Shown here in pieces: positions 42,213 through 56,121 of a DNA stretch of 64,000 bases. This stretch comes from Lentzea atacamensis (lineage in GTDB: Bacteria; Actinomycetota; Actinomycetes; Mycobacteriales; Pseudonocardiaceae). The notes under the pieces are model-generated. The model was not told where the DNA came from. It made no database searches and was given only the letters and a program-made list of their open reading frames with translations. Every line of letters starts with the position of its first letter. The stretch's first letter is position 1. The translations under genes were made by a program, and so were the position numbers. The stretch is from positions 124,001 through 188,000 of the forward strand of contig NZ_QLTT01000004.1 in assembly GCF_003269295.1 (NCBI RefSeq), read 5' to 3'.

Positions 42213-42488
42213 TCAGCGAAGTGAAGTCACTGTAAGTATCGACTGGCACACGAACACGAGCCGTTCTCGCAACGGTCGTGCCCGCTCGGCGAACGCCGCC
42301 TGCTGCCGCGCGTACTCCGCCCGCCCGTCGGGGGTCTCGATCGGCACGGGGTCGTACCCGAGTCCAGCCAGGTCGTACGGCGAGGCCCGCATGTCGAGCT
42401 CGCGCACGTCGGCTGCCAGCTCGAAGCAGTCCGCGACCAGGTCGGACGGCGTGGCGGGCTCCATCTTGTAGGCCCACTTGAAGAGGTC
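42213..42488 (-). pseudogene. C-terminal half of interrupted 3-methyladenine DNA glycosylase-like gene
   Basis: Encodes DLFKWAYKMEPATPSDLVAD, CFELAADVRELDMRASPYDL and IETPDGRAEYARQQAAFAER, the C-terminal 85 codons plus the six encoded by the att core. The N-terminal half is at 55507-56121. Joining the two at the shared core restores one frame of about 290 aa matching a conserved actinobacterial family usually annotated as 3-methyladenine DNA glycosylase. An element-derived ATG at 42512 could start a short version, but no function is expected from this piece alone. Confidence 0.85.
42471..42488 (+). other. attL core
   Basis: GGCCCACTTGAAGAGGTC, identical to 55507-55524. Encodes DLFKWA on the minus strand in the host gene. 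On the element side, CCTACAAG (42502-42509) is the inverted partner of CTTGTAGG beside attR. Confidence 0.93.
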
Positions 42489-42523
42489 AAAGTGGTTGAA
42501 ACCTACAAGCAAGGGGGCTGATG

Positions 42524-42721
42524 ATGACCAGCAACGAACGTAGGGCAGTCAAGGGCGAGCTGTGCACCTGCGGCAGGCAGGCCGTGACCGTGTTCCGTAC
42601 CGAGCTGCATGGAGAGATCGGTTGGTGCGGAGTCAGCAACGTCCCCCAGGTCTCCCCGTGCCCGTGGTGCTCAGGGGATCACGGCGGCAAGTGTGCCCAC
42701 TACTCGATCTCTACGCACTGA
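42524..42721 (+). CDS. small Cys-rich (zinc-ribbon-like) protein at element end
   Basis: 65 aa from ATG 42524 (AAGGGGG 6 bases upstream; ATG 42521 is an alternative). CTCGRQAVTVFRTE and CPWCSGDHGGKCAHYS give two CxC/CxxC-like knuckles. It lies between attL and the integrase gene, a place where recombination directionality factors or small regulators may occur; there is no sequence evidence for that role. Confidence 0.65.
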   Translation: MTSNERRAVKGELCTCGRQAVTVFRTELHGEIGWCGVSNVPQVSPCPWCSGDHGGKCAHYSISTH

Positions 42722-42740
42722 CCAACAGGGAGCGAATCAG

Positions 42741-44297: not shown

Positions 44298-44310
44298 AAG
44301 GGGGAATAGC

Positions 44311-45069
44311 ATGAACAAGACATTGTTTTGGATTGCCGTAGTCGCAGTCATCGTAGTTGCCCTGGTTGCCGGAATCGTTTCCTATGACCACCTGCACACG
44401 GTTGCCGTTGCCGCAGGCGAACAATCCTGGATTGCCAAGCTTGTGCCACTTTCCGCAGACGGCCTGTTGGTTTCCGCCAGTCTTTCCGCATTCGTGGCAA
44501 AGTGGCAGGGCCGGAAGGTTCATGGCATGACCAAGCTGAGCCTGGCCGTTGGCCTTACCGCGTCGGTTGCCGCGAACATCGCATCACCCTTTGTGGGTGG
44601 ACTTACCGGAACTGGTCAAGACATCCTTGCCGCAATCGTCGGTGCGTGGCCTGCCATTGCCCTAGCACTCTCGTTTGAGGAAGTCCTCAGGCTGAGTGTT
44701 GCCCACACTTCCGTTCCGGAAACAGCCGAGGAAGTAGCCGCAGTGCCGGAAACGGCAGAGACGGAAGCAGTGGTCATTGCCGAACCCGTGGAAGTTCCGG
44801 AAGTAGCGGAAGTGCCACAAGCGGAAACCCCGGAAGTGCTCCCATTGCCGGTGGCAGCCTCACCAGTGCGGAAGTCGAGTCCCCGGAAGTCCCCGGCAAC
44901 TCAAGGCGGAACTTCGGTCAAGGCGGAAGCGCTCGCATATCTGACCGCCAACCCCAACACTACTGCCGTTGAATTGGCAGCGAGGTTCGACCGGTCCGAC
45001 CGATGGGCACGGATGATTCGTAAGGAATTCCTGGAGAGCGGAAAGGCTCTGCAACTGGTATCCGCATAA
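44311..45069 (+). CDS. DUF2637 membrane protein with C-terminal HTH
   Basis: 252 aa, ATG 44311 after AAGGGGGA. Residues 1-125: four hydrophobic helices with DUF2637 features (GIVSYDHLHTVAVAAGEQSW, LVPLSADGLLVSASLSAFVA, AWPAIALALSFEEVLRL). Then a long Glu/Pro/Val-rich linker built from repeated VPET/VEVPEVAE-like units. Residues about 200-252 form a short HTH (EALAYLTANPNTTAVELAAR, FDRSDRWARMIRKEFLESGK). DUF2637 proteins occur in actinobacterial plasmids, AICEs and phages, where a link to DNA transfer or replication has been proposed. Not proof of conjugation here. Confidence 0.82.
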   Translation: MNKTLFWIAVVAVIVVALVAGIVSYDHLHTVAVAAGEQSWIAKLVPLSADGLLVSASLSAFVAKWQGRKVHGMTKLSLAVGLTASVAANIASPFVGGLTGTGQDILAAIVGAWPAIALALSFEEVLRLSVAHTSVPETAEEVAAVPETAETEAVVIAEPVEVPEVAEVPQAETPEVLPLPVAASPVRKSSPRKSPATQGGTSVKAEALAYLTANPNTTAVELAARFDRSDRWARMIRKEFLESGKALQLVSA

Positions 45070-45129
45070 AAGGACCATTGGGATAGCCGCTAACTACCCC
45101 AATGGCAAGTCAATAGTACCAAATCGTCT

Positions 45130-45158
45130 AGAGGGTCGCCCAATGGCGGCCCTCTTTC
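45130..45158 (+). terminator. intrinsic terminator
   Basis: Stem AGAGGGTCGCC / GGCGGCCCTCT (one G-T pair), loop CAAT, then TTTCTC. Ends the integrase/DUF2637 unit. Confidence 0.85.
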
Positions 45159-45177
45159 TCATGCAGGGGAGATTGCA

Positions 45178-45321
45178 ATGATTGCACCGTGGAAGCCCAT
45201 AATTGGCTATGAGGGTGCGTATGTCATCCACCTGATGATGTGCCTAGATCGGCAATGCGCAGACGGGCTTTTAACGCGTCCCAGTCTGAGCGAAAACCGG
45301 ACCATAATGCAGAGCATGTGA
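45178..45321 (+). pseudogene. remnant of a NUMOD4/HNH endonuclease gene
   Basis: A 47-codon frame with a good ribosome site (GCAGGGGAGA) starting IAPWKPIIGYEGAYVIH, which matches the NUMOD4 DNA-recognition motif at the start of phage HNH endonucleases (compare WGDIPEYEGLYQVSDHG at 47028). After about 17 residues the similarity ends and the frame continues antisense through the lipoprotein gene. Interpreted as a truncated gene start. Confidence 0.5.
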
Positions 45322-45691
45322 CATCCGGGTAGTACTTGACGGTGGTCTTAAACCCACTCTTGCATTTGTTCAGGTTGTACTCGGACGCAGATCTGATGAT
45401 GGAGCTTGCAGCAGCACGAACCTCACTATATCTACGGCTGTCGGGGTGTTTGTCTATCTCGGACCTGAGGTCAACGGCCACCTCTGCCATTGGGTCATAG
45501 TCGGTCTTGCAGGGTTCCGACGCATTACACGGCGTGAGTCGTCGATCTATAGCCTCTATTGACGCTGAGAATTTGTCTTGAAGACGAACATCCCCCGCCG
45601 ACTCAGAGCCGTTGTCGGGTGCCGCTCCGCAGGCTGACACCAGCACCAACCCGACCACCAAGAGGGCATGGCCACACCTGGTCACGCTCAT
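45224..45691 (-). CDS. putative lipoprotein of the element
   Basis: 155 aa from ATG 45691; a GTG 9 bases upstream is possible. Lipoprotein signal GHALLVVGLVLVSACGAAPD with lipobox LVSAC, then a polar domain with four Cys (PCNASEPCKTD, NKCKSGFK, VTCSALW) that may form disulfides. No family recognised. It is the only minus-strand gene in the left half of the element, so probably expressed from the lysogen; a surface or superinfection-exclusion role is only a guess. Confidence 0.65.
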   Translation of the reverse strand: MSVTRCGHALLVVGLVLVSACGAAPDNGSESAGDVRLQDKFSASIEAIDRRLTPCNASEPCKTDYDPMAEVAVDLRSEIDKHPDSRRYSEVRAAASSIIRSASEYNLNKCKSGFKTTVKYYPDVTCSALWSGFRSDWDALKARLRIADLGTSSGG

Positions 45692-46012
45692 GAGACTCAC
45701 CCGCTTCACGTTGCTGGTCTGGGCATGGTGACACCGCACCCTGTGTCGAGCCCTGTCAGACAGCAGCTCGGCGACCGCGTGTGCCGACACAGGCCGGACG
45801 CAAGCAGGAACAAGCCCTGAGAGCCTCTCTAAGCGCTTGAAGGTCCGCGACCACCAAACCGTACCCGGAACCGGGCTCCAGTGGCGCAGCGTTGAACTGA
45901 GGGGCTTAAACGAGGGTCTTGCACTCGACCTTGACCACGGGTATAAGCCCTGAACCCCCGGACCAGGCTCAGCCTGCACAGTCACCAACAGGCTGAAACC
46001 CTTGGCGCACAA

Positions 46013-46867
46013 CGACTTCAGTCACTTTCGGGTGGTGCTGGCAGCCCTCAGTGACGTTGAGGTCTCACCAACTGAGTACCCGATGACGTTGAGAAGTCAC
46101 CTTTCCCGCGTGCGCGTAGTAGAGGCTCGTGTGCGTCCACACGCGCGGCTCATCCCCGTAGGGGATGGACTACCTACTCAACCGCTGGAGTGACCTCCAC
46201 CCTCAGACCTCACCGCAGGAACCCCCGAGGTCAATGGATGGGTGCAGAGGCCCCAGAAAGGGCCTCTATGGGTTGAATGAATGGCATCGGTGGTTGGGTT
46301 GCTCAGCCATTGGAGTACGTGCCTGCGGTTCGTTCGAGCCACCGGAAATTGGGCAGACCCGAGCTACCGTTCAGGAACTGGACCAATGTACCGCAGACGT
46401 GAGGTCACCGACTGAGCCAAAACCCCTTGACCAGGCACGATGCCCAAGCCGGCAACGGGACTGCGATAATACCAATGCATGTCTATGGTGGCGAGGTGCG
46501 TCACATACACAGGGCAGATGTGCTTGTGCCCGGTCATATACAGGTTGAGGGACTAGTCACACCAGTGTCATGGTCCCAGCTGGATGACACCTAGTACAGG
46601 GTGAGACGTCTTTCCGGGCTCGCCACTGGCACCCCCAAACGCCCTGTAAAAGTGACCTGGGGGAAACGCAGATACTGATGTGAGGTGCATCACACATACA
46701 GGGCAGTTGGGCGGTTCCCCGGTCTAGTACAGGGTGAGAGACCATCTCACTCAACCCATATACGTACCTCCATGCTCATAGAGCTTGGAGGATTTTTAGT
46801 TTGCGCTCCTACTGATCACTAATCAGCTACCAATCGGCTACTTACTGCAACAAGGGAAGGGGTACTA
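46013..46867. other. 855-bp non-coding region of the element
   Basis: Several short frames exist, but none has a convincing ribosome site or domain. Contains hairpins (CATCCCC GTA GGGGATG at 46151-46167; AGAGGCCC/GGGCCTCT at 46246-46267) and the direct repeats listed separately. Size and repeat content suit a replication origin or a long control region. Confidence 0.5.
46493..46739 (+). repeat. two pairs of direct repeats, iteron-like
   Basis: Pair A: GAGGTGCGTCACATACACAG (46493-46517) and GAGGTGCATCACACATACAG (46682-46706), 22 of 25 bases identical. Pair B: CTAGTACAGGGTGAGA, exact at 46591-46606 and 46724-46739; a weaker TACAGGTTGAG occurs at 46539. All in one orientation within a gene-free region. 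Confidence 0.75.
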
Positions 46868-47035
46868 ATGGCCACCGACACGTTCAGGTGTGGGCACGAA
46901 CGTACTGCTCTGAACACGTACAACTCTGGGAACAACCCAAGATGCCGACAGTGCTACAACGATTACCAAAGGAATTACCGCCGTAAGGCGTCACAGGCTC
47001 TGCGAGAGAAGGAGGGAAGGTGCAACGGTGGCTAA
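46868..47035 (+). CDS. small zinc-finger-like protein upstream of HNH endonuclease
   Basis: 55 aa, ATG 46868 after AGGGAAGGGG. Contains TFRCGHERTALNTY and PRCRQCYNDYQRNYRRKASQ, a CxH...CxxC knuckle with a basic tail, as seen beside or inside phage HNH endonucleases. It overlaps the HNH gene by 8 bases, so translation is coupled. Possibly a DNA-binding accessory of that endonuclease. Confidence 0.68.
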   Translation: MATDTFRCGHERTALNTYNSGNNPRCRQCYNDYQRNYRRKASQALREKEGRCNGG

Positions 47036-47639
47036 AGAGTTGTGGGGGGATATCCCCGAATACGAGGGACTGTATCAGGTAAGTGATCATGGCCGCGTGC
47101 GTTCCCTTGACCGTGAGATTGAATGTATGAGCCGGTGGGGAGACCCAATGACAAAGCGATGGAAAGGCCGTGTCATGAAGCCGACACGGAGCAAGTTGAC
47201 CGGGCATCTTATGGTCAGCCTCTGGCGAAGCGGCGAAATGCGAAAGCGGACAATACATACGCTAGTCGCAGAAGTATTCATCGGGCCGCGTCCAGTCGGT
47301 ATGGAGGTACTGCACGGACCCAATGGCGTCACTGACAACAGTGTGTCTAATCTGAGCTACGGCACTCACGCCCAAAACATGCGGGACATGCTGAGGGATG
47401 GTACTCACAACGAGGCCCGTAAGACGCATTGCAAGTATGGGCATCCGTTTAATGAGCGCAACTTGGCGAAATACATGCTTAAACGAGGCCGTCGACTATG
47501 TCTAGCGTGCTCTCGTGCTCAATCAGCGTTAAAGGATATTCGCAAGGCAGGCAAAGCTGAGCCAAACTTTCAAAGGCTTTCCGACATCAAATACGCTGCA
47601 ATTCGCAACGGCGGTCAGGACGTCACTGAAGACGAGTAA
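47028..47639 (+). CDS. NUMOD4-HNH homing endonuclease
   Basis: 203 aa from GTG 47028 (GGAGGGAAGG 7 bases upstream). NUMOD4: LWGDIPEYEGLYQVSDHGRV. HNH: TIHTLVAEVFIGPRPVGMEV, LHGPNGVTDNSVSNLSYGTH with HG-N-N pattern. C-terminal knuckle HCKYGHPFNERNL and LCLACSRAQSALK (C..H...CxxC). The gene uses a TTA Leu codon (47529-47531). Such endonucleases spread within phage genomes or act near packaging genes. Confidence 0.88.
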   Translation: MAKELWGDIPEYEGLYQVSDHGRVRSLDREIECMSRWGDPMTKRWKGRVMKPTRSKLTGHLMVSLWRSGEMRKRTIHTLVAEVFIGPRPVGMEVLHGPNGVTDNSVSNLSYGTHAQNMRDMLRDGTHNEARKTHCKYGHPFNERNLAKYMLKRGRRLCLACSRAQSALKDIRKAGKAEPNFQRLSDIKYAAIRNGGQDVTEDE

Positions 47640-47677
47640 GTCAGTCACCACCACAACCACATACGAACCACACGATG

Positions 47678-47702
47678 ACCAGGCTGCCACGCCTGGTTTT
47701 TT
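47678..47702 (+). terminator. intrinsic terminator after HNH gene
   Basis: CCAGGC (47679-47684) / GCCTGG (47691-47696), loop TGCCAC, then TTTTTT. Confidence 0.92.
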
Positions 47703-47734
47703 CATACCCGACGTAGGACGAAAGGAACCATCAC

Positions 47735-48571
47735 GTGACGAACAACGACAACGCAGCCCTGATTCAGCTACGCGGCGTAGTACAGCAGCTCAAGACGGTA
47801 GGAGTAACCATCCCGGAAGATCTGGCCTCCGAGATCAAGGGCGTAGATACCCTGCGAGTAATGACGGAACAGACCCGACATGACCGTGACAACGCAATGC
47901 GTGATCTTGGCCAGGCCCCTACCCAGGATCTCGAAAAGGCTTTGAGGGAAGCACGGCTTAAGTGGGCCGAGTCGAGCGTTGATGCTGAATTCATCTCACG
48001 GGCAGAGGCGATCCAGCAGGGCAGGGTTTCGGGAGCGTTCTACCGCAATGCAGGCTGGTTCCTGGAAGAGCTAACCGACAAGATGAATGCCGTTGTGGAT
48101 GAGTATGAGCTGAACACGCTCCGACTTCCACCGAACCTAAATGAGATCAACCCGCTATGGATGACTCCTGAGGATCAGAATTCTATTGAGGCGTTTCGAA
48201 GTGCAGTTCCGATTCTGGACTCACTATGGAACCCGTACAAGATGGTTGCGGTCGCGGTGGGACACCAGTACTCCATTGCCAACAAGACGGATGAGGGTCC
48301 CTCGGTCGCCGTGGCATGGCTCGTTTCCGACGTCGAATCGTCCAGGGATGCCGATGCGCTCGCAACCGACTTCCGTCGCCTGAGTCAGGGTGTGACCAGT
48401 ATGGAAAGGATTCGGTCTCTGGGAATCTGGGGCGTGATCTCACTGTCTGGTTTCAATATCGACATCTGCTCACCGGAAGAGGCTGAGTATCGACGTGAGT
48501 TCGCCCGCAACCCAGCCAGCGCATCTGCACCCCCTGCAAAGAAGCGCAAGGCAGTACTGCTCAACAAGTAA
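47735..48571 (+). CDS. hypothetical element protein, 278 aa
   Basis: GTG 47735 with AAAGGA 8 bases upstream. N-terminal third is helical and charged (LIQLRGVVQQLKTVGVTIPE, EQTRHDRDNAMRDLGQAPTQ), possibly coiled-coil; the rest contains NAGWFLEELTDKMNAVVDEY and GVISLSGFNIDICSPEEAEY. The tail is basic (PPAKKRKAVLLNK). No family recognised. Flanked by a terminator and the folded-RNA candidate, so it may be its own transcript. Confidence 0.75.
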   Translation: MTNNDNAALIQLRGVVQQLKTVGVTIPEDLASEIKGVDTLRVMTEQTRHDRDNAMRDLGQAPTQDLEKALREARLKWAESSVDAEFISRAEAIQQGRVSGAFYRNAGWFLEELTDKMNAVVDEYELNTLRLPPNLNEINPLWMTPEDQNSIEAFRSAVPILDSLWNPYKMVAVAVGHQYSIANKTDEGPSVAVAWLVSDVESSRDADALATDFRRLSQGVTSMERIRSLGIWGVISLSGFNIDICSPEEAEYRREFARNPASASAPPAKKRKAVLLNK

Positions 48572-48595
48572 GCAACCGAATAGAAGTGGGTAGCG

Positions 48596-48670
48596 GCCTG
48601 CGGCTTGTCGCACCCGAGTAGTTCGGGTGCTTAGGGATTCAGCTTTGCTGAGATCCCGCGAACCGCAGGC
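48596..48670 (+). ncRNA. candidate structured RNA (three-way junction)
   Basis: Outer stem GCCTGCGG (48596-48603) / CCGCAGGC (48663-48670). Hairpin 1: GCACCCGA / TCGGGTGC (48610-48630), loop GTAGT. Hairpin 2: GGGAT+TCAGC / GCTGA+ATCCC (48634-48657), one bulged G, loop TTT. All pairs are Watson-Crick. It does not fit a tRNA cloverleaf or hammerhead core. It lies 33 bases before the FDXHR gene. Confidence 0.5.
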
Positions 48671-48702
48671 TTTGTCATGCCCAAGCAAAGGAGAAAGACC
48701 AC

Positions 48703-49128
48703 ATGGAGAAACTGACCCAGACCACAGCACAGTTCGCGACCACCACGCTAGAGCCTCACCCAAACGCGTTTTCAGGGCTTGAGAGCCCTTGGCCGGTACA
48801 ACCACCCTACCCAGACGAAAAAGTCGCTCAGAATGACGCATTGACGGCAAAGAGGCCCCGTCTAAATACATGCGGTGGATGTGATGCCAGGTGGAAGGGA
48901 GCCAAGGTCTGTCACTGCTCCGCCCGTGGCTGCCATCAGACGTTTTCTACGGTCACCCTTTTCGACTTGCACCGATCCGCAGAAGGTGACCACGGTTCTT
49001 GTAAGGACCCTGCGACCATGAGGAACGGCAAGACGGGTGAGCCTCTGATGTCCTTCCGTGAGGGTGTCTGGCGTGGCCCTGCAATGACTGAGGAACAGAA
49101 GGTTGCAAAGTATGGAGGTAAGGCGTGA
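48703..49128 (+). CDS. FDXHR-type zinc-binding phage protein
   Basis: 141 aa, ATG 48703 after AAAGGAGAAAG. The zinc-binding core NTCGGCDARWKGAKVCHCSA, GCHQTFSTVTLFDLHRSAEG has CxxC...CHC...C and FDxHR, as in a domain common in actinophages. C-terminus VWRGPAMTEEQKVAKYGGKA. Function unknown, probably early or regulatory. Confidence 0.82.
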   Translation: MEKLTQTTAQFATTTLEPHPNAFSGLESPWPVQPPYPDEKVAQNDALTAKRPRLNTCGGCDARWKGAKVCHCSARGCHQTFSTVTLFDLHRSAEGDHGSCKDPATMRNGKTGEPLMSFREGVWRGPAMTEEQKVAKYGGKA

Positions 49129-49340
49129 ATGACCCAATCCCTGCACAAGTCAAATGGTGTGGTCAGTGGTACGAGCTAGGTAAGGCTCTCAAAGGGCCGT
49201 TTGTAGAGGTCTTGAATCACGACCTAAAGACATGGTTCCGGGTTCGCAAGGGCGACTGTGAAGCGGCAACCTTCCTCGACCTGGAGAGCTACACCTATCG
49301 CACGGTGAGTGGACCGTTCGCCAACAACCAACTTGTGTAG
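49125..49340 (+). CDS. hypothetical small protein, 71 aa
   Basis: GTG 49125 overlaps the previous stop (GTGA). Beta-rich appearance (VKWCGQWYELGKALKGPFVE, NHDLKTWFRVRKGDCEAATF). No family recognised; translationally coupled to the FDXHR gene. Confidence 0.65.
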   Translation: MNDPIPAQVKWCGQWYELGKALKGPFVEVLNHDLKTWFRVRKGDCEAATFLDLESYTYRTVSGPFANNQLV

Positions 49341-49370
49341 AAGAAAACCAATCTGAAGGAGAGAGATCCT

Positions 49371-49595
49371 ATGTCGTATACCGCAGGAATGCGTGACCGA
49401 AACCAACCTGAGGAGGTGTTCACCATGTCAGCACCTAAGCCGACCCCCGAGAAATGGGGACGTTGGCAAACTGAAGTAGTTCGAGGATGCAAAGGCCGAA
49501 AGGTTGTTCCCTTGACCAGCAACACACGAATCAACCAGCAACTCCGCGCAGAAGAGGTAACCAATGACGAACGCAGTACAGACCGACCAGACTAA
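49371..49595 (+). CDS. hypothetical small protein, 74 aa
   Basis: ATG 49371 follows GAAGGAGAG. A second in-frame ATG at 49425 has an even better site (AGGAGG, 8 bases), so a 56-aa product (SAPKPTPEKWGRWQTEVVRG) may be the main one. Basic; no family recognised. Overlaps the next gene by 32 bases in another frame. Confidence 0.55.
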   Translation: MSYTAGMRDRNQPEEVFTMSAPKPTPEKWGRWQTEVVRGCKGRKVVPLTSNTRINQQLRAEEVTNDERSTDRPD

Positions 49596-50343
49596 CTCCT
49601 ACAACGACGCTGACAGGGTATTGGAGATTCTTTCGAATAGTACTATGGGCCTCCGTCTTGAGGACATTTATCGAAAGCTGTCCGGTGACGTCCAGTATCT
49701 GTCTCCTCAAGAACTCCCCGAGTTTGACCCGTTCGGCGATAACGCGCCTGATCCGAAGCTAGACAGCCTGCGGTCATTGATGGACGGACACAGGGATGCG
49801 GGAAAGGTGGAGCTGAACACCCTTGGCCGTTGGCAACTAGTACGTACCCCGTTCGCCCCTCAGAAGCCTGTACAGCCTCCAAAGGCAGCTGTGCCTAGTC
49901 CCAGGGCACCTCAGACTGTCTCAGCCGCTCAGCCCCCAGAAAAGCCGTTCCGGTCAGACAAGCAGACCCGCAAGGGTGAGAAGCACCCAGGTTCGGCAAC
50001 CAAGAACCGTCCTACCCGAGACGACTTCACTCAGAATGAGCATCAGATGGCAGTTTTCATGATGGACATCGGTTCGGTTGAAGGGTTTATGGCGCTACGA
50101 CTGGCAACTCTTGCTTACGGCACTGATAAGTATGGTGGTCGGGGAGTCTTCAAGGCACCCATTGATACTGCCGCTGACCTCTGCAAGATGGGCCGTTCCA
50201 CGTTTAGCCGGAATCTGGTGAAGCTTTTGGATGCCGGGTTGTTCGTTCGCTTGGACAACGCTATGGGTGGTCGAGGCAACCGGAACCCCATGATCCTAAA
50301 GCCCTCACTGCCTGCGTGGTACAAGAAGGGCAGTGAACTATAA
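49564..50343 (+). CDS. putative DNA-binding protein with winged-helix domains
   Basis: 259 aa. N-terminal part looks like a winged helix (ADRVLEILSNSTMGLRLEDI, DAGKVELNTLGRWQLVRTPF), followed by a Pro/Gln-rich linker (about residues 95-150). The C-terminal part (YGGRGVFKAPIDTAADLCKM, GRSTFSRNLVKLLDAGLFVR) has a clear HTH and wing. This architecture resembles phage replication initiators or regulators, but there is no decisive motif. ATG 49564 after AGAAGAGG. Confidence 0.6.
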   Translation: MTNAVQTDQTNSYNDADRVLEILSNSTMGLRLEDIYRKLSGDVQYLSPQELPEFDPFGDNAPDPKLDSLRSLMDGHRDAGKVELNTLGRWQLVRTPFAPQKPVQPPKAAVPSPRAPQTVSAAQPPEKPFRSDKQTRKGEKHPGSATKNRPTRDDFTQNEHQMAVFMMDIGSVEGFMALRLATLAYGTDKYGGRGVFKAPIDTAADLCKMGRSTFSRNLVKLLDAGLFVRLDNAMGGRGNRNPMILKPSLPAWYKKGSEL

Positions 50344-50667
50344 ACCTTCTCACTTCTGAGAGGGTTTAGTGGCCAATACGCCCGCTGACCTGCGGAAACC
50401 CCGTAAACCTTCTCACTAAAGGTTCTCAGATGTGGGGAACGATAGTCTAATGGTAAGTCTAGAGACTCGTAGACCTAAGAGACGACCAGCTTAGGGCTGG
50501 TCTTTCTCGCATTATCCCAGGTCATCGCAAGAGCAACCGCAGGTTGCTCCCACACTCCGTGTGGACATTTAACGTCACCGGGTATGTCTAGTGTAGTAAC
50601 AAACCCTCTCACTTCTGAGAGGCTTTCTAGTCTGAACACCCAAACCCTGTCAGATTTGGCAGGGTTT
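50342..50667 (+). repeat. array of short hairpins in a 349-bp intergenic region
   Basis: AAACCTTCTCACTTCTGAGAGG (50342-50363, written in part: CTTCTCACTTCTGAGAGG) recurs at 50601-50622 with one change; each folds as CTCTC/GAGAG. Further hairpins: GACCAGC/GCTGGTC followed by TTTCTC (50484-50505) and AAACCCTG/CAGGGTTT followed by CTC (50642-50667). No gene of its own was found between 50344 and 50692. Confidence 0.65.
50484..50507 (+). terminator. intrinsic terminator
   Basis: GACCAGC (50484-50490) / GCTGGTC (50496-50502), loop TTAGG, then TTTCTC. Confidence 0.75.
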
Positions 50668-50692
50668 CTCACTCGACCCGTAAGGAGCGCCT

Positions 50693-50899
50693 GTGCACAA
50701 GAACCCGCTTATCGCTGGTCCGCACATGACCATCTCAATGGCGGAACTTGCCGAACTGAACGGTGGCACCGTTGAGGAAGCTATTCAGTCAATGACTCGT
50801 TTGGTTGAAGTCGGCCTATTCGCGATCATTGACCATCACCCTGACGACTGGACTATCTGGGCAACGTTCATTCCGACCATCCCTGAGGACGTCCCATGA
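50693..50899 (+). CDS. hypothetical small protein, 68 aa
   Basis: GTG 50693 with AAGGAG 6 bases upstream. HTH-like content (MTISMAELAELNGGTVEEAI, QSMTRLVEVGLFAIIDHHPD) suggests a small winged-helix fold. Overlaps the next gene by ATGA. Confidence 0.62.
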   Translation: MHKNPLIAGPHMTISMAELAELNGGTVEEAIQSMTRLVEVGLFAIIDHHPDDWTIWATFIPTIPEDVP

Positions 50900-51225
50900 A
50901 GCCAGTAGATATGGAGGTGTTCACGCACTACCAAGAGAACGACACTAGGACCTATCCAGTCCTGATCGGCTCGTGTCCGTGGTGCTGTCGCCTGCACAAG
51001 TTTCCATTCAGTCTCAGGAGCCGCTTAGAGGCCGTGAAGCTCACTGGACAGATAAGGACACCAGAAGCTCACCGCCTGCACTGTGAAGCGTTCTCAGAGG
51101 GTGTAACGCTAGTCGTCAGGGATGAGCCCATGAGCCTCTACCGACGTCCTCTCACAGACGAGAAACCAGAGGATTGGAATCGCTGGATTCGTATCACTCC
51201 TCCCTCGGATGAGCCTCCCTTCTGA
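50896..51225 (+). CDS. hypothetical Cys/His protein, 109 aa
   Basis: ATG 50896 overlaps the previous stop. Possible zinc site: GSCPWCCRLHKFPFS and EAHRLHCEAFSEG (CxxC...H...C). Contains a TTA codon (51025-51027). No family recognised. Confidence 0.65.
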   Translation: MKPVDMEVFTHYQENDTRTYPVLIGSCPWCCRLHKFPFSLRSRLEAVKLTGQIRTPEAHRLHCEAFSEGVTLVVRDEPMSLYRRPLTDEKPEDWNRWIRITPPSDEPPF

Positions 51226-51287
51226 AAGTCATACTCACACCCCGTCTGACCTGCAATAAATGTCACCGCGGCCTGACGGAAGTTCCT

Positions 51288-51449
51288 CTACCTGCGGAAC
51301 GTCACATAGGTCCCGTACGCCGCAGGAGCAAGCGACACAAAGTGCCATCCCTGCCTCACCATCTCATTGATTGCCTTTGTGGCCTCGGCCGCAGCTACGG
51401 CAGGTTCAGAAATCGGCCCACTTACGTGTTTCACCACGTATTCATCCAC
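51288..51449 (-). CDS. DUF4177-like small protein, 53 aa
   Basis: Minus-strand GTG 51449 with an excellent ribosome site (AAAGGAG, 5 bases). DEYVVKHVSGPIS at the start and INEMVRQGWHFVSLAPAAYG at the end match the YxVV...G[WY].LVS pattern of DUF4177. Function unknown. It is transcribed against the surrounding genes. Confidence 0.68.
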   Translation of the reverse strand: MDEYVVKHVSGPISEPAVAAAEATKAINEMVRQGWHFVSLAPAAYGTYVTFRR

Positions 51450-51514
51450 CGCGACTCCTTTAATTGCAAACTTTCCGATCTGACAGATCATACGACCAAC
51501 AGCAAGGAGACCCA

Positions 51515-51685
51515 TTGAACCCATCCCAAATGCCACGACGTCGACCACGGCGTAACAGCAACCCCAGTCGATCACGCAACGAACCCAGGACAGTTCTACA
51601 GGCCCGCAAGCACGTAGCGGACGTCAAGGTAATGGACAAGGACAAGCACAAGATTCGCATGCAACTGCACTTCGGAAAGGATTAG
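51515..51685 (+). CDS. hypothetical Arg-rich small protein, 56 aa
   Basis: TTG 51515 with AAGGAG 5 bases upstream; ATG 51530 is a weaker alternative. Very basic first half (MPRRRPRRNSNPSRSRNEPR), then VLQARKHVADVKVMDKDKHK. Could bind nucleic acid. It ends 4 bases before the next gene. Confidence 0.58.
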   Translation: MNPSQMPRRRPRRNSNPSRSRNEPRTVLQARKHVADVKVMDKDKHKIRMQLHFGKD

Positions 51686-51689
51686 ACCG

Positions 51690-52040
51690 ATGTTGGATCT
51701 CATCGCAACTCAGGCACTAGTGGAGCGTGCTCAGGCAGACGCACAGAAGGAGGTCAGTCGCTATAAGGCTCGCATTGATAACGCACCCACTCTGGCTAGG
51801 GACGAACTGGGCAAGGAATATCTACCTCAGATTGAAGGCCTACAGGCTGACATCACCACAATCACTCAGGAGCGAGACCAGGCACATGCACGTATCGAAA
51901 AGCTAGGCGTAGCCGTGTCCCTGGGAATCCCTCTCAAGAACGCTGCCACATTCGCAGAGCTTCTACAGGGCTCTAACCCAGACGAGTACGAGGCCCATGC
52001 AGAACATCTACTCGAACTCTTCAGGAAGGCGGGAAGGTAA
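51690..52040 (+). CDS. coiled-coil protein, possibly phage scaffold-like
   Basis: 116 aa, ATG 51690. A long heptad-like helix (QALVERAQADAQKEVSRYKA, LQADITTITQERDQAHARIE) followed by KLGVAVSLGIPLKNAATFAE and LLQGSNPDEYEAHAEHLLEL. The order 'coiled coil, short G[IL]P helix, ...E.LL..F' is seen in capsid scaffolding proteins, but scaffolds are usually longer and no capsid gene is present. The assignment is tentative. Confidence 0.45.
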   Translation: MLDLIATQALVERAQADAQKEVSRYKARIDNAPTLARDELGKEYLPQIEGLQADITTITQERDQAHARIEKLGVAVSLGIPLKNAATFAELLQGSNPDEYEAHAEHLLELFRKAGR

Positions 52041-52336
52041 TGGCCACTAACCGAATCCCATGCAAGAGGACCTCATGTCCTGGGACTATCCGGGCTGGTG
52101 CTAACTACACCCATTGCAGCGCTCTCTGTAGGTACACAGACGTACAGGTGGATATGGCCCTGAATAAGGGCGACAACGCGTCTGTAGCAGAGCTGAGCGC
52201 ACTACTAGGGATTGTAGACGCGGTAAATGCATGGCGTGCGGTTGTACAGGTAGAGGCGCGACTAGGAAAGCGTCGTAATAAGAGCGCGAACACACATGCA
52301 CACAACACCCCTGAGAGCCCCTGTGGACCTACGTAG
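52040..52336 (+). CDS. hypothetical zinc-ribbon-like protein, 98 aa
   Basis: ATG 52040 overlaps the previous stop by one base (TAATG). N-terminal Cys pairs: RIPCKRTSCPGTIRAG and YTHCSALCRYTD (CxxxxC...CxxxC), then a helix (ASVAELSALLGIVDAVNAWR). No family recognised. Confidence 0.65.
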   Translation: MATNRIPCKRTSCPGTIRAGANYTHCSALCRYTDVQVDMALNKGDNASVAELSALLGIVDAVNAWRAVVQVEARLGKRRNKSANTHAHNTPESPCGPT

Positions 52337-52541
52337 AGATAGTGGGTAGACGTGGGTATAGGGAGAGGGGAGAGCGTGGCTGTGTGTGGCTTACGGGAGG
52401 GCATTAAGACGCCTTTCTGGCAAAAGGTATGGGGGGCTATACCCGGTACCCCCTCTCTTGACCGGTGCGTATAGCGTTCGGCCGATCGCGAGGCAGTTAA
52501 AGGGTAGTTGAAGTTAACTAAAAGTAGTTGGGAGATGTGAA
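52337..52541. other. 205-bp intergenic region before the terminase small subunit
   Basis: No gene. Contains GTATGGGGGGCTATACCCGG (an imperfect GGTA/TACC-rich block, about 52425-52455) and AGTT-type short repeats (52493-52530). Packaging (cos/pac) sites often lie beside terS; there is no direct evidence here. Confidence 0.4.
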
Positions 52542-52958
52542 ATGAGTGATTCAGGTACCGGCTCAGACGTGGATATCTACGTACCACCCGCGCCAGACGG
52601 TCTCAATGACGATGCAGTGGCTTTCTGGGAGCATGTTCACGGGGCCACGCCTATCAGTGATTATGAGAGGACGATTCTTGCAAAGCTATGTCGTGCCCTC
52701 ACTCGGGTTGATGAGCTAGAAGACGCCTTGAAGCGTGATGGTGACTTCCTGATTCCAGGTTCGCATGGAAGTACGGTCATCAATCCCCTGTTGCCTGAGA
52801 TGCGACAGCAACTGACCACGATCAACACGCTATACAGGACTTTGAAGCTCCATGATGTGATCGGAGAGCTTCCTAACGCCAAGAACGAGCCTGCGGTAGA
52901 CCCCAACGTGGTTGATCTGATTGCCCGTGCCAAGAACAAGAGGGCGAGTGGTTCCTGA
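52542..52958 (+). CDS. P27-family-like phage terminase small subunit
   Basis: 138 aa, ATG 52542 after GGGAGATG. Features of the P27 group: LNDDAVAFWEHVHGATPISD, YERTILAKLCRALTRVDELE, LIPGSHGSTVINPLLPEMRQ, QLTTINTLYRTLKLHDVIGE. The small subunit recognises the packaging site and normally precedes the large subunit, but the next gene is an HNH endonuclease and no large subunit follows. Overlaps that gene by one base (TGATG). Confidence 0.8.
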   Translation: MSDSGTGSDVDIYVPPAPDGLNDDAVAFWEHVHGATPISDYERTILAKLCRALTRVDELEDALKRDGDFLIPGSHGSTVINPLLPEMRQQLTTINTLYRTLKLHDVIGELPNAKNEPAVDPNVVDLIARAKNKRASGS

Positions 52959-53557
52959 TGCCACGCGAAAAGGGACGTCCTGGCCATGCGACGGTCAGAA
53001 ACGACACAGACGTAGGAAAGAAGCACGCGAAGATCGCTGCACTTGTTCCGGTCGTGGATCACCTCAGGCTCAGGCTTGACTCCCAGCCCGATTACTCCGG
53101 CATGTCAGATCATCTAGACGATGCGGTAGACGACGTGGTGAATGACATCCTTGAATCACCCGTAGAAGACCCTGTCAGGATCTCACTTTTGTTCCGAGCT
53201 GTTCTAGAGTCGCCAGTAGAGATCAATGAGAACTCGATCCACTGGAATCCGCCGCCTGTTGTTGTGCTTGTGGTGAGGGAAGTTGAACTCAATCGTGGTT
53301 TCGTGGCCCTGGTTGATGATGAGGACTACGAACGAGTATGTGAGCACACTTGGGAAGCCTCGTTCACTAATCAGGTCTACGCGTTGAGGAAGTACAAGAA
53401 TGATGACGGCAGAACGGCTCGTGAGTCTCTGCATGACTTCCTCATGAGCCCGCCTGACGGTTTCCGTGTGGAGCACGTAGACGGGGACAGGTTGAACTGT
53501 CAGCGTGAGAATCTGCGACTCGTGGAAGTCGAGCCCAAAACAAAGGACCCGGCTTAA
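52958..53557 (+). CDS. HNH endonuclease with unusual N-terminal extension
   Basis: 199 aa. Residues about 108-190 match AP2/HNH homing endonucleases: LNRGFVALVDDEDYERVCEH, TWEASFTNQVYALRKYKNDD, RVEHVDGDRLNCQRENLRLV (HNH: H-x-D...N...N). Residues 1-105 (PREKGRPGHATVRNDTDVGK, SDHLDDAVDDVVNDILESPV) do not belong to that family and might be the start of another gene now fused. HNH enzymes beside terminase are needed for packaging in many phages; the NUMOD/AP2 type is instead often a selfish element. Confidence 0.78.
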   Translation: MPREKGRPGHATVRNDTDVGKKHAKIAALVPVVDHLRLRLDSQPDYSGMSDHLDDAVDDVVNDILESPVEDPVRISLLFRAVLESPVEINENSIHWNPPPVVVLVVREVELNRGFVALVDDEDYERVCEHTWEASFTNQVYALRKYKNDDGRTARESLHDFLMSPPDGFRVEHVDGDRLNCQRENLRLVEVEPKTKDPA

Positions 53558-53569
53558 GTAAGCCGGGTC
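53546..53569 (+). terminator. hairpin at the end of the terS-HNH unit
   Basis: GACCCGGCTTA / TAAGCCGGGTC, 11 complementary bases with a 2-base apex, overlapping the HNH stop; followed by TCC, with no T tract. Between here and 53757 I found no gene. Confidence 0.6.
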
Positions 53570-53757
53570 TCCAGGGCGTATTTGATTCCTGCTGTCCATT
53601 AAGCGATTTGAGGCGTTGAACCCCTTCTCGGGTATGACCACCCTAGGCGGGCGTAAAAACGGCTCAGAGGCTCTCTGGGTAGGGCGTAATGGCCTGTCCT
53701 TAGTTGTCACACGATCCAGATACAGCAGCAAACGTCGTTTCCGCCTGTGTATGCCAT

Positions 53758-53928
53758 TCAGGGGGTCTCTTCCTGGTTGTTTCGTGAGTCTTGCCGTTTG
53801 TTGTCGATTGCCTCAACCGTGGCGGCGATGACAGCGACCAGAACTAGTGCGACCAGACCACCTATCAGCGGTGTTGCCAATGAGAGGAGAAATTCGCCTA
53901 TCGCTTTCGCTTCCATGCCCATACCCAT
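53758..53928 (-). CDS. small membrane protein, holin-like in size
   Basis: 56 aa from ATG 53928; ATG 53922 or 53916 are possible. One hydrophobic helix LLSLATPLIGGLVALVLVAV, then a charged tail (EAIDNKRQDSRNNQEETP). It overlaps the preceding minus-strand gene by up to 31 bases in another frame. Function unknown. Confidence 0.58.
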   Translation of the reverse strand: MGMGMEAKAIGEFLLSLATPLIGGLVALVLVAVIAATVEAIDNKRQDSRNNQEETP

Positions 53929-54032
53929 AGCCGGTAATAGATGCGGGTCTCCTTGAAGTGAGACCACCAGACGTATCCGGTCACGAAGACAGCCGACGTG
54001 ACCAGTACAGCCAAGAGGATATCCCCAGCCAT
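53898..54032 (-). CDS. small single-pass membrane protein, 44 aa
   Basis: ATG 54032 overlaps the previous stop by one base (TGATG). Hydrophobic AGDILLAVLVTSAVFVTGYV, then a basic aromatic tail (WWSHFKETRIYYRLWVWAWK). No family recognised. Its overlap on both sides suggests a tightly coupled three-gene unit. Confidence 0.6.
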   Translation of the reverse strand: MAGDILLAVLVTSAVFVTGYVWWSHFKETRIYYRLWVWAWKRKR

Positions 54033-54244
54033 CACAGATCCCCTATGGCGTTCATGTACTGCTGTGCCCTCTTTCGCAATCGAACGGCTACCTGCGGGTG
54101 CTTGGTCACCTTGGCGTTGGTCATGAGCCGATTGATCCTGAACCGCACTATTCGACGGATGGCCTCCTCGTCATCCCCGAAGGTTTCTCGAAGGTTCTGC
54201 ATCGCATCCTCAACACCATCCATCGTGATCACCACCCCAGGCAT
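54032..54244 (-). CDS. hypothetical protein, 70 aa
   Basis: ATG 54244 after AAGGGG. Helical, charged: MDGVEDAMQNLRETFGDDEE, AIRRIVRFRINRLMTNAKVT. First gene of a three-gene minus-strand unit that diverges from the XRE regulator, which may control it. Confidence 0.62.
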   Translation of the reverse strand: MPGVVITMDGVEDAMQNLRETFGDDEEAIRRIVRFRINRLMTNAKVTKHPQVAVRLRKRAQQYMNAIGDL

Positions 54245-54370
54245 TCCGACCCCTTACCGCTATAACTCGACTGGGTGAGCAGTCCCCGCCGCTGATCGAG
54301 GGTGGTTCAACGACGGGAACCGCTCTGGTCCCATTCCAACCCATGGCAGGCTCATATATGCTGCTCAGAG

Positions 54371-54388
54371 CGTCTACAGCCGTCTACA
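54371..54388. promoter_or_regulatory. direct repeat in front of the XRE regulator
   Basis: CGTCTACA at 54371-54378 and 54381-54388, spaced 10 bp (one helical turn), ending 16 bases before the regulator start, in the 160-bp divergent region. Candidate operator. Confidence 0.4.
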
Positions 54389-54404
54389 AATCGAGGGGTG
54401 GCCT

Positions 54405-55319
54405 GTGAACGGGGCAGATCTACGAACCGCACGCGTGGCGGCTGGTGTCAGCCTGAGTGAGATGTCTCGGCGAACCCACTTCAGTAAGGCGTACCTAGGC
54501 CACCTGGAAACCGGAAAACGGTCGATCGGTCCCGAACACATACGGGCCTACGAACAAGCCCTGAACGTCTCCCTGAGCCACGAACGGCACTCGGTGGGGG
54601 TGACTGACGTCGAGCTGCTCTCACAGGCGGTAAACGTGGTTACAGCCCTTGGGTTGAGGCATGGCGGCATGGCTATCGCAGACATGGCTAGGTCTCACTG
54701 GGGCTGGACTGAGGGGCTTCTCAACCAGTCGATGCCTGACAACGTCCGAAAGGGACTGTCATGGCAGGCCGCACGTCTGGCTAACCGTCTGGGGTGGTCC
54801 TTGTCAGAGGCCGGACGCAAGACCCAAGCAACCACGGCCTACACCACGGCACTTGACCTGTCGAAGCACGACCACGGGCTACACGCAGCGGTGAGCGTCG
54901 ATCTTGCCAAGCACAAGGTTGGTATGGGCCACCCTCAGGAAGCCCTTACGTTGCTGGATTCCTTGTCTCCCAAGGAACCCGTTCATCAGTTCACCGCCAA
55001 CGGCGTTGCTTCTCTGGCAGCAGCCACGCTAGGGGACTGGCAAGGAACCGTGAGGTATGTAGGGCTTGCCGACGAGGCATGGTCCAGGGTCGAGCTGAGC
55101 AACCTTCCTGAGGTCAACAGGCCGTACGTCTCGGGTCATGAGGCGCACGCTCACAGGGATGCAGGCAGGGCGTTTCATGTGCTGGCACTCAAGGGTGAGA
55201 AGAGGGCTGTTCCCCTTGCGGGGCAACGACTTGAGCTAGCCGTCTCCATGTTCGGTCCGGACCGGGCGAACGCCGTTTCCCAGTGCCGTAAGCGTTTGGA
55301 CTCTCTGGCCACCCTCTGA
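54405..55319 (+). CDS. XRE-family regulator with C-terminal TPR-like domain
   Basis: 304 aa from GTG 54405 (GAGGGG 8 bases upstream). HTH at residues 4-58: LRTARVAAGVSLSEMSRRTH, FSKAYLGHLETGKRSIGPEH. The remaining 240 residues are TPR-like helices (QATTAYTTALDLSKHDHGLH, HPQEALTLLDSLSPKEPVHQ). This layout is common in actinobacterial regulators of secondary metabolism and mobile elements, and it is the best candidate for the element's repressor. Followed by the tRNA. Confidence 0.85.
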   Translation: MNGADLRTARVAAGVSLSEMSRRTHFSKAYLGHLETGKRSIGPEHIRAYEQALNVSLSHERHSVGVTDVELLSQAVNVVTALGLRHGGMAIADMARSHWGWTEGLLNQSMPDNVRKGLSWQAARLANRLGWSLSEAGRKTQATTAYTTALDLSKHDHGLHAAVSVDLAKHKVGMGHPQEALTLLDSLSPKEPVHQFTANGVASLAAATLGDWQGTVRYVGLADEAWSRVELSNLPEVNRPYVSGHEAHAHRDAGRAFHVLALKGEKRAVPLAGQRLELAVSMFGPDRANAVSQCRKRLDSLATL

Positions 55320-55373
55320 TCTTGCCCCGTTTGGCCCCTCACAGGATTGTGTACGGCCCTTAGGGTCTTCTGT

Positions 55374-55447
55374 GCCCCCGTAGCCCAACCGGCAGAGGCA
55401 GACCCCTTAAAAGGGTTGTGTTGTGGGTTCGACTCCCATCGGGGGCA
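55374..55447 (+). tRNA. tRNA with anticodon UAA (reads UUA), class I variable arm
   Basis: Acceptor GCCCCCG / CGGGGGC, TA, D-arm GCCCAACCGGCAGAGGC, anticodon stem GACCC / GGGTT with loop CTTAAAA (TAA at 55408-55410), 5-nt variable loop GTGTT, T-arm GTGGG TTCGACT CCCAT, discriminator A, no CCA. The anticodon is that of tRNA-Leu(UAA), but genuine tRNA-Leu has a long variable arm, missing here. The charging amino acid is therefore uncertain. Located 60 bp inside attR. Confidence 0.8.
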
Positions 55448-55506
55448 CTACATGTTTTGCCTGGTCAAAGCACCTGTGTGGACTGCTGGACAAGCCTTGT
55501 AGGATG

Positions 55507-55524
55507 GGCCCACTTGAAGAGGTC
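55507..55524 (+). other. attR core
   Basis: GGCCCACTTGAAGAGGTC, identical to 42471-42488. CTTGTAGG on the element side (55496-55503) is the inverted partner of CCTACAAG beside attL, giving attP a dyad around the core. Confidence 0.93.
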
Positions 55525-56121
55525 CATGTTCGCGTGCAGGCACCCCGGCTGCTCGTTCGCGACCTGGTCTTCACGCGTGGGCTGGAGGGCGTTGCGAGGC
55601 CGCGCGGGCTGCGTGAAGAATCGGAACGCGTCGAAGTGCCCGCACTGGATCCGGCTGGCCTCCACCACCCGATCGGTCCCATCGCTGCCGAGCCGCAGCG
55701 GCCACGCGTTGTGCCTGATCTCCTCGGGTTCCTGCCGGTAGACCATGGCCCACTCGTGCAGCCCGAAACACCCGAGCCGCGGCGGCCGGCTGAGCGTCGC
55801 CGTGAGCAGCTGCCGCACGAAATCGACAGTCTTCGCGCGCTGCCCCAGGAAGCTCTCGACGTCGAGCACGACACCGTCCGGCGTGGCCTTGTAGTGCGGA
55901 AACTCCAGGTACTCCGCCGCGTCCTCGAGGACGACACCCGGCCCCGGATGCCACCGTTCAAGCCGCACGGGCCGATGGCTGTAGTACGTGAAGAGGAAGT
56001 CCATCACCGGGTGCTTCTCCTTGCGAAGCTTCCGTTCCTGATGCGGACCCGTGAACCGCCTCATGCGTGCGACGTGCGCCTCGCGCAATTCGTGCCATTC
56101 GGCTCGGGTCAGGACCTCCAC
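55507..56121 (-). pseudogene. N-terminal part of interrupted 3-methyladenine DNA glycosylase-like gene
   Basis: 205 codons from GTG 56121 to the att core: MDFLFTYYSHRPVRLERWHP, GCFGLHEWAMVYRQEPEEIR, GHFDAFRFFTQPARPRNALQ, GCLHANMDLFKWA. The frame then runs into the element and stops at 55465 after 13 foreign residues. The C-terminal half is at 42213-42488. The label glycosylase is the common annotation of this conserved family; I see no helix-hairpin-helix motif to support it biochemically. The start is 20 bases from the divergent DUF1801 gene. Confidence 0.87.

Follow-up and report, generated by a model that had tools for sequence, protein, structure and literature searches.

A 13-kb integrated element of Lentzea atacamensis, probably a phage satellite with a terminase small subunit, a shortened scaffold protein and a cos-like site but no head genes

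A 64,000-nucleotide window of the Lentzea atacamensis genome (contig NZ_QLTT01000004.1, positions 124,001 to 188,000) contains, at 42471-55506, an integrated, attachment site (att)-flanked unit of 13,036 bp with its own integrase. GC content is 0.64-0.75 outside and 0.52-0.61 between about 42.5 and 55.5 kb, an exact 18-bp direct repeat lies at both ends (42471 and 55507), and a serine integrase gene starts just inside the left end. The att core falls within a protein-coding gene, with the 5′ part of that gene in the right flank and the 3′ part in the left. The gene is whole in all 23 other genomes of the genus, with an open frame of 292 aa in 21 and of 298 and 375 aa in the remaining two. In the same 23 sisters the flanks adjoin, and at the core they overlap (17-18 bases in 21 genomes, 16 in L134 and 11 in L119), which fixes the element as 42471-55506. 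Integration at a tRNA gene was considered and discounted, given that the tRNA sits within the element and the att core belongs to the protein gene. An earlier, sequence-only reading had proposed a phage satellite at 46868-53557, which turns out to be the middle part of the element only: the genes it named for TerS (terminase small subunit), a scaffold-like protein, FDXHR and HNH proteins do lie there, and the integrase (42609-44297) and regulator (54405-55319) lie outside that span. The features that carry the argument are as follows.

42213-42512, minus strand: 3′ portion of the disrupted host gene, of host origin as far as the core (flank comparison with sister genomes)
42471-42488: left copy of the att core, 18 bp (direct repeat; site uninterrupted in sister genomes)
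42609-44297, plus strand: large serine integrase, 562 aa (Resolvase 1.8e-31; phrog_95 integrase 5.8e-117; at most 45% identity to actinophage integrases)
47735-48571, plus strand: g278, a satellite-associated protein (profile matches in 8 of 297 family genomes; none in phages)
51690-52040, plus strand: predicted shortened head-scaffold protein, 116 aa (phrog_233, 2e-11; annotated Rhodococcus phage scaffolding proteins, E 2e-4)
52428-52477, plus strand: cos-like site, a GC-rich palindrome then GACCGGTGCGTATAGCG (top match in 64 kb of a 15-site model, E 0.011)
52542-52958, plus strand: predicted TerS, 138 aa (phrog_1496, 1.7e-11; actinophage TerS matches)
52958-53557, plus strand: HNH_3-domain protein adjoining TerS (PF13392, 2e-6, above cut-off)
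55465-56121, minus strand: 5′ part of the interrupted host gene, its last codons from the element (open reading frame (ORF); flank comparison with sister genomes)
55507-55524: right copy of the att core (direct repeat; site uninterrupted in sister genomes)

The product of 52542-52958 is, by homology, a phage-type TerS. It aligns with an actinophage TerS at 36% identity (5e-9), and tblastn found matches in 115 phage records (Mycobacterium 104, Gordonia 8, Microbacterium 2, Mycolicibacterium 1), with "terminase small subunit" annotated in 18 among 20 listed TerS-matching records. Of its earlier description as a P27-like TerS, the TerS assignment is borne out by PHROG 1496; the NCBIfam P27 model scored under cut-off, as did Pfam Terminase_4 (E 9.2e-4). 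TerS matches occur in 20 of 297 genomes of the family, our own included, and up to 20 kb around the other 19 loci were compared. Six of these are satellite-like (L036, L041, L046, L047, L048 and L050), being of low GC with TerS and shared small genes and lacking a TerL (terminase large subunit)-sized head gene. Five are prophages with a nearby TerL, detected by profile A7 in L034 (where TerL is split over two frames), L035 and L037 and by phrog_2 in L038 and L052; the other eight were left unclassified (L033, L039, L040, L042-L045 and L049). In a TerS tree the satellites did not form one clade (5 changes), though compatible with one origin, and the window sequence sat on a long branch; the tree was not used.

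The possible scaffold-like protein of the sequence-only reading was borne out by its PHROG 233 and Rhodococcus phage matches. Homologues occur in prophages L034, L035 and L037, with PHROG 233 confirmed in L034 (165 aa) and L037 (176 aa); the L035 ORF has 212 aa, its called start probably lying too far upstream. Compared with the prophage scaffolds, the window protein is missing about 30 residues at the N-terminus and about 40 at the C-terminus, and it found no match among the other satellite islands. PDB sequence searches with TerS, the scaffold and g278 gave nothing usable, and viral-contig scans with these three, the integrase and the g278 of L046 returned no relative.

A candidate cos (cohesive-end) site lies before TerS. 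A 91-bp stretch is 82% identical between satellite L036 and prophage L034, with a weaker copy in L035, upstream of TerS or of the HNH gene preceding TerS. A GC-rich palindrome, then GATCGGnnnGTATAGCG, then about TGCGTCGC, stands upstream of TerS in many loci. A plain 17-base pattern derived from L037 outscored shuffles in a minority of loci only, and profile models were therefore built. In a leave-one-out run on 12 of 15 non-window sites, the omitted site came out top in 12/12, with E below 0.005 in 11 and E 6.4 in L045; this run included one misaligned training row (L069), corrected in later models. Across the 64-kb window, the model of all 15 non-window sites scored best at 52428-52477 (E 0.011), within the 205-bp gap that precedes TerS. 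An 11-site model, made from nine loci in which a TerL-sized gene lies close to TerS, with L045 and L069 as unverified additions, ranked the same gap first (E 0.12), and 0 of 60 column-shuffled models matched it.

Elsewhere, the 11-site model peaked before TerS in satellites L036, L046, L050 and L041 (E ≤8.4e-4) and in L033 (E 0.033). Of eight phage loci that had not been used in training, five (L084, L085, L097, L099 and L100) gave their top match at most 0.9 kb before TerS with E ≤4e-4; L103 was weak (E 0.036), and L079 and L081 gave none. A 10.3-kb island without TerS, L146 of genome G079, has a cos-like site at L146:8551-8616 (E 7.6e-6 with the 11-site model), as expected of a satellite that uses its helper's TerS. 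In seven of 31 viral contigs the contig end lies 66-139 bases ahead of the TerS match, and six of the 31 end at the site motif: TAGCA falls within the first 20 bases of L082, L102, L105 and L109 (L102 and L105 were training sites), L086 and L108 start with AGCA, and L090 has neither. That several contigs end at one sequence suggests that these are physical ends of the genome, and hence cos. The window site at 52428-52477 is probably a cos site as well.

Pfam and PHROGs scans of 19 of the 21 listed ORFs (all except 53758-53967 and 54032-54244) revealed no family for TerL, portal, protease, capsid or tail, in agreement with the sequence-only reading. Apart from the integrase, the longest ORF is at most 304 aa, which is too short for TerL or portal; a TerL-sized ORF of 552-624 aa follows the same TerS family in 29 of the 31 viral contigs, and the portals of L034 and L037 have 467 and 474 aa. 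The 9.3-Mb host genome as a whole gave no TerL match with PF03354, phrog_2 or profile A7, no portal (phrog_104) and no HK97 capsid (phrog_10). Profile A7 was likewise empty in nine of ten genomes with an island or g278 (G000, G161, G208, G224, G004, G072, G122, G292 and G281), and in the tenth, G079, its one match lies about 1 Mb from the island. As a positive control, A7 matched beside TerS in prophages of G174, G284 and G205; phrog_2, the first TerL probe, misses the PHROG 9 type (G174 is empty with phrog_2 and positive with A7). Prophage genes occur elsewhere in some of these genomes, none of them inside the islands: phrog_10 capsids in G161, G004, G072, G122 and G079, portals in G292 and G079, the A7 TerL of G079, and phrog_2 matches in several.

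Seven or eight further genomes of the family have comparable islands without head genes (L036, L041, L046, L047, L048, L050, L146 and, more loosely, L145). These islands span five other genera, carry TerS and/or g278 and have either integrase type. Two were found with a g278 profile: L146, which has a tyrosine integrase, g55 and FDXHR and no TerS, and L145, with an AAA protein, g278 and unclear boundaries. Seven of the nine elements carry g278 (the window, L036, L041, L046, L048, L145 and L146; not L047 or L050), and two g278 sequences had zero matches in 50,697 phage records. Integrases are of serine type in the window, L036, L046, L048 and L050 and of tyrosine type in L041 (phrog_1, 1.8e-51) and L146 (54% identity to that of L041); none was found in L047, whose contig ends. 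Flanking att-like repeats of 11 to 18 bp, of which the 11-bp one could be chance, give lengths of 9.45 kb (L050), 10.06 kb (L041), 10.28 kb (L146) and 11.28 kb (L046), with no clear repeats for L036 and L048. Eighteen proteins of L036, L041, L046, L048 and L050 matched no head or packaging family in PHROGs. Two loci came out of a genome-contig scan with A5: L080, which is the L048 island, and L079, in which a 606-aa TerL follows TerS.

Two side observations stand apart. L144:9890-10933 in G292, also reached with the g278 profile, is a g278 homologue (41% to that of L046) in ordinary 70% GC DNA with no element seen around it, a candidate remnant or domesticated copy. Putative membrane-protein cargo near TerS is common to satellites and a prophage (L036:8439-9590, L146:7923-8510 and L035:8515-9465), and over one run of 57 aa those of L036 and L035 are 79% identical, which suggests exchange between satellites and a helper-type phage.

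The remaining features of the element, which include candidates for replication and control, are listed here.

44311-45069, plus strand: DUF2637 protein with a C-terminal helix-turn-helix (HTH)-like tail by eye (PF10935, 2.6e-15; weak phrog_733 excisionase, 1.4e-4; homologue in satellite L041)
45224-46012, minus strand: ORF, lipoprotein-like by eye, true start probably internal (no family matched)
46868-47035, plus strand: g55, a 55-aa Cys-containing protein (weak PHROG HNH-tail matches; homologues in L046, L050 and L146)
47028-47639, plus strand: NUMOD4-HNH homing-type endonuclease (PF07463 2e-15 and PF13392 1.3e-6, above cut-off; phrog_1492 1.1e-67; PADLOC homing endonuclease 4e-14)
48703-49128, plus strand: phage FDXHR zinc-binding protein (PF24071, 2.9e-16, above Pfam cut-off)
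49125-49340, plus strand: small ORF, 71 aa
49371-49595, plus strand: small ORF, 74 aa
49564-50343, plus strand: HTH-containing protein, weak candidate replication initiator (RP-C and HTH_20, E ~0.05, below cut-off; homologue in L050)
50342-50667: palindromic repeats starting AAACC(C/T)T(C/G)TCA (4 starts), candidate origin or terminators (repeat and stem analysis)
50693-50899, plus strand: small ORF, 68 aa
50896-51225, plus strand: 109-aa protein common to satellite L050 (36%; sequence comparison)
51288-51575, minus strand: 95-aa ORF, overlapping a 73-aa plus-strand ORF as alternative candidate
52040-52336, plus strand: 98-aa ORF
53758-53967, minus strand: 69-aa ORF, membrane-like by eye
54032-54244, minus strand: 70-aa ORF
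54405-55319, plus strand: XRE-TPR regulator of NsdA-family type, candidate repressor (HTH_3 2.2e-10; NF053720 9.6e-22, above cut-off)
55374-55448, plus strand: tRNA-Leu(TAA) inside the element (ARAGORN; RF00005, 55 bits)

The order of a replication initiator and then an origin, a trait of phage-inducible chromosomal islands (PICIs), may be represented by the weakly matching HTH protein and the palindromes after it. The L050 homologue of this protein links to L046 and L047, similar palindromes adjoin the L047 homologue, and 50342-50667 contains 2 stems of at least 9, where 100 shuffles gave a mean of 0.24 and a maximum of 3. Between the replication candidate and the next gene, 50428-50506 resembles a tRNA arm by eye, followed by a terminator-like hairpin, and was called by neither ARAGORN nor Rfam. 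A 61-nt direct repeat (77%; 46493-46553 and 46682-46742) lies where the element has no convincing gene over 850 bp. The tRNA-Leu(TAA) is 75 nt long, short for a leucine tRNA, and 76-82% identical to copies in genus genomes. That it might serve the element's TTA codons was considered; TTA makes up 6/296 leucine codons in the element versus 4/762 in 19 host-like ORFs. Apart from the homing endonuclease, a PADLOC scan of the element gave weak matches only, and phage and plasmid searches found no near match of the element.

Taken together, the att-flanked unit with TerS, scaffold and cos-like site, lacking TerL, portal, protease and capsid, leads us to read the element as an integrated phage satellite that would work like a cos-type PICI, with a probability of roughly 0.8. 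The satellite view of the sequence-only reading is thereby supported: the genes it named are present with open frames, and the related islands in five other genera share the absence of head genes.

Several findings weigh against this reading. The host genome shows no sign of a resident helper that carries these TerL, portal or HK97 capsid families; the element was absent from the 23 sisters in a DNA search of 24 genus genomes, where the other listed matches were to the tRNA only; and 22% of its length has no called gene. The regulator and the integrase stand at opposite ends of the element, outside the PICI layout as given in the accessible part of PMC6092414 (divergent regulators beside int, then xis-pri-rep-ori); a replication initiator before the origin, exclusive PICI genes and helper interference are further PICI traits named there. 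Library scans found no primase or stl/alpA homologue, and the sole hint of an excision factor is the weak PHROG match of the DUF2637 protein. The cos-like match in the window is weak by itself, with an anchor motif picked after phage and window sequences had been viewed; the site model gave E 0.56 in the right place in L048, E 0.047 on the wrong strand in L047, and no support in L070, L073 (described below) and L145. Lastly, PHROGs coverage of the islands is partial, at 18 proteins from five islands, and the proteins that islands share are only about 20-60% identical.

We infer the following course for excision, replication, recruitment of TerL through TerS and cos, and head modification by the short scaffold. 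A related temperate phage growing in the cell, with TerL of PHROG 9 type and scaffold of PHROG 233 type, would relieve the regulator at 54405, the serine integrase would then excise the element, and the 49564 protein may start replication near the palindromes at 50342-50667. The element TerS would bind the putative cos at 52428-52477 and recruit helper TerL and procapsid, with the adjacent HNH protein perhaps aiding cleavage. The 116-aa scaffold might compete with the helper scaffold, favouring small heads or lowering helper yield; this step leans on staphylococcal precedent, in which, according to the accessible text of PMC12409344, the helper scaffold meets competition from CpmB and, as has been proposed, from Rcm.

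A scaffold without its C-terminal part could equally be an inhibitor. That the element is a satellite as proposed, with the 116-aa protein serving as an inhibitor of helper assembly or as unused cargo and not as a size switch, is close to an even prospect: the missing ~40 C-terminal residues and the lack of a match in other islands speak for it, and on the other side stands the precedent, from what could be seen of PMC12409344, that small proteins of Staphylococcus aureus pathogenicity islands (SaPIs) competing with the helper scaffold redirect capsids, which is no direct counter-point. With somewhat less assurance, short of even odds, we suggest an undescribed, diverse group of capsid-less actinobacterial satellites, with and without TerS, that is marked by g278 and a shared cos signature and in which this member captured a shortened helper-type scaffold as a capsid-size switch. 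Satellites influence both the defence against phages and the transfer of genes. A group that lacks capsid genes but can be recognised by its cos signature and a hallmark protein would offer a way to find further members and a pointer to the helper phage type, and the size-switch hypothesis becomes directly testable in an antibiotic-producer lineage.

It is improbable that a temperate phage integrated here, lost its late genes and left TerS and a scaffold fragment as a decayed prophage. TerS, scaffold, FDXHR, HNH and integrase all have phage homologues, the window scaffold is shorter than phage scaffolds, and the genome holds no TerL, portal or HK97 capsid gene, all of which such decay would accommodate. 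Yet the two att copies are intact, as are the listed frames, and the gene order is reversed: the window runs from scaffold to TerS, whereas prophages L034, L035 and L037 have the order TerS-TerL-portal-protease-scaffold-capsid (from PHROGs on 8 proteins, each role after TerS covered at least once). Loss from mid-module would not reverse TerS and scaffold, and a deletion from such a prophage is therefore unlikely; nor do the relatives turn out to be prophages whose structural genes fill the place of a gap in this copy. Moreover, islands with overlapping gene sets, no head genes and their own flanking repeats recur in other genera, and g278 was not found in phages.

Slightly less probable still is a capsid-forming satellite (a capsid-forming PICI (cfPICI) or phiRv1-like element) that has lost its capsid gene. 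A phylum-wide TerS profile, matching 12 of 396 genomes (our own included), brought up the order-level relatives L070 and L073, in which TerS and an AAA protein stand together with a major head protein (phrog_10, 6.6e-34 and 2.2e-33) and which represent a capsid-forming type; L036 and L041 have the AAA protein in common with them. These are two small capsid-encoding elements of one genome, G688, each adjoining a near-identical (99.7%) 2.6-kb region that looks transposase-like by eye. However, phrog_10 genome searches put no capsid gene in the window element or the eight related islands, g278 precedes TerS in several islands and matches no head family, and L070 and L073 lack the cos-like site. 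DUF2637 and NsdA-type regulator genes occur on actinobacterial plasmids and on actinomycete integrative and conjugative elements, and both are present here, but an integrative conjugative or mobilisable element that is no phage parasite is very improbable, with neither a relaxase nor an FtsK/Tra translocase turning up in Pfam and PHROGs (19 of 21 ORFs scanned) or in NCBIfam (10 ORFs), no near plasmid match, and no known role in conjugation for TerS, scaffold or a cos-like site.

Among known systems, P4-like satellites do not fit: the Pfam and PHROGs scans revealed no P4 replication, regulatory or capsid-size family. The phage-inducible chromosomal minimalist islands (PICMIs) of Vibrionaceae, set beside the element by their description in the accessible part of PMC10803314 only, are similarly small with reduced gene content; they have no capsid-remodelling gene and an unrelated host. 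The MulchRoom and MiniFlayer satellites of Streptomyces phages likewise depend on actinobacterial phages but, as far as the text seen of PMC10690885 goes, encode encapsidation machinery and capsid genes, whereas the element has only TerS and a short scaffold. The prophages L034, L035 and L037 have a homologous or similar TerS, scaffold and cos-like site and are the likely helper type, with a full head module and the opposite TerS/scaffold order.

phiRv1 and phiRv2 are similar in size to the element. Candidate PICIs of Mycobacterium, phiRv1/phiRv2-like, resemble it in their actinobacterial hosts, serine or tyrosine integrases and, in some, tRNA genes (PMC10654092, in the part available). Their publication limits the earlier suggestion of an undescribed type; what stands is that they are defined there by an integrase and a major capsid gene, and the element and its relatives have no capsid gene. 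The cfPICI capsid was missing from the whole host genome, with no phrog_10 match, and the element falls outside both the strict PICI and the capsid-forming definitions. Actinobacterial satellites described in the accessible literature carry their own capsid genes, and within the literature and wording searched we found no capsid-less Pseudonocardiaceae satellite described. Passages seen in two further sources cite three further satellite types for Cyanobacteria and Actinobacteria (PMC11389934) and consider that small actinobacterial elements below 15 kb could be satellites or PICIs (PMC10023795).

The closest likeness is to the PICIs and SaPIs of Gram-positive cocci, including the cos-type ones. 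Unlike SaPIs, the element has a large serine integrase, a regulator at the opposite end and an actinobacterial host; library scans showed no stl or primase homologue, and g278 takes the place of known interference genes. The general libraries named no PICI gene in the element, PICI-specific profiles not being part of those scans. A scaffold-capture origin of a size switch was seen proposed, in the parts of the literature searched that were accessible, only for staphylococcal islands. The PICI definition, as worded in the portion seen of PMC6092414, asks for a terS homologue (in some) or the helper's cos/pac (packaging) site on the element, and the predicted TerS and cos-like site would supply both. 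The element shares with these islands a small att-flanked unit, a TerS lacking TerL or head genes beside it, a packaging-site-like sequence and a small scaffold-like gene as in the SaPIs that carry CpmB or Rcm.

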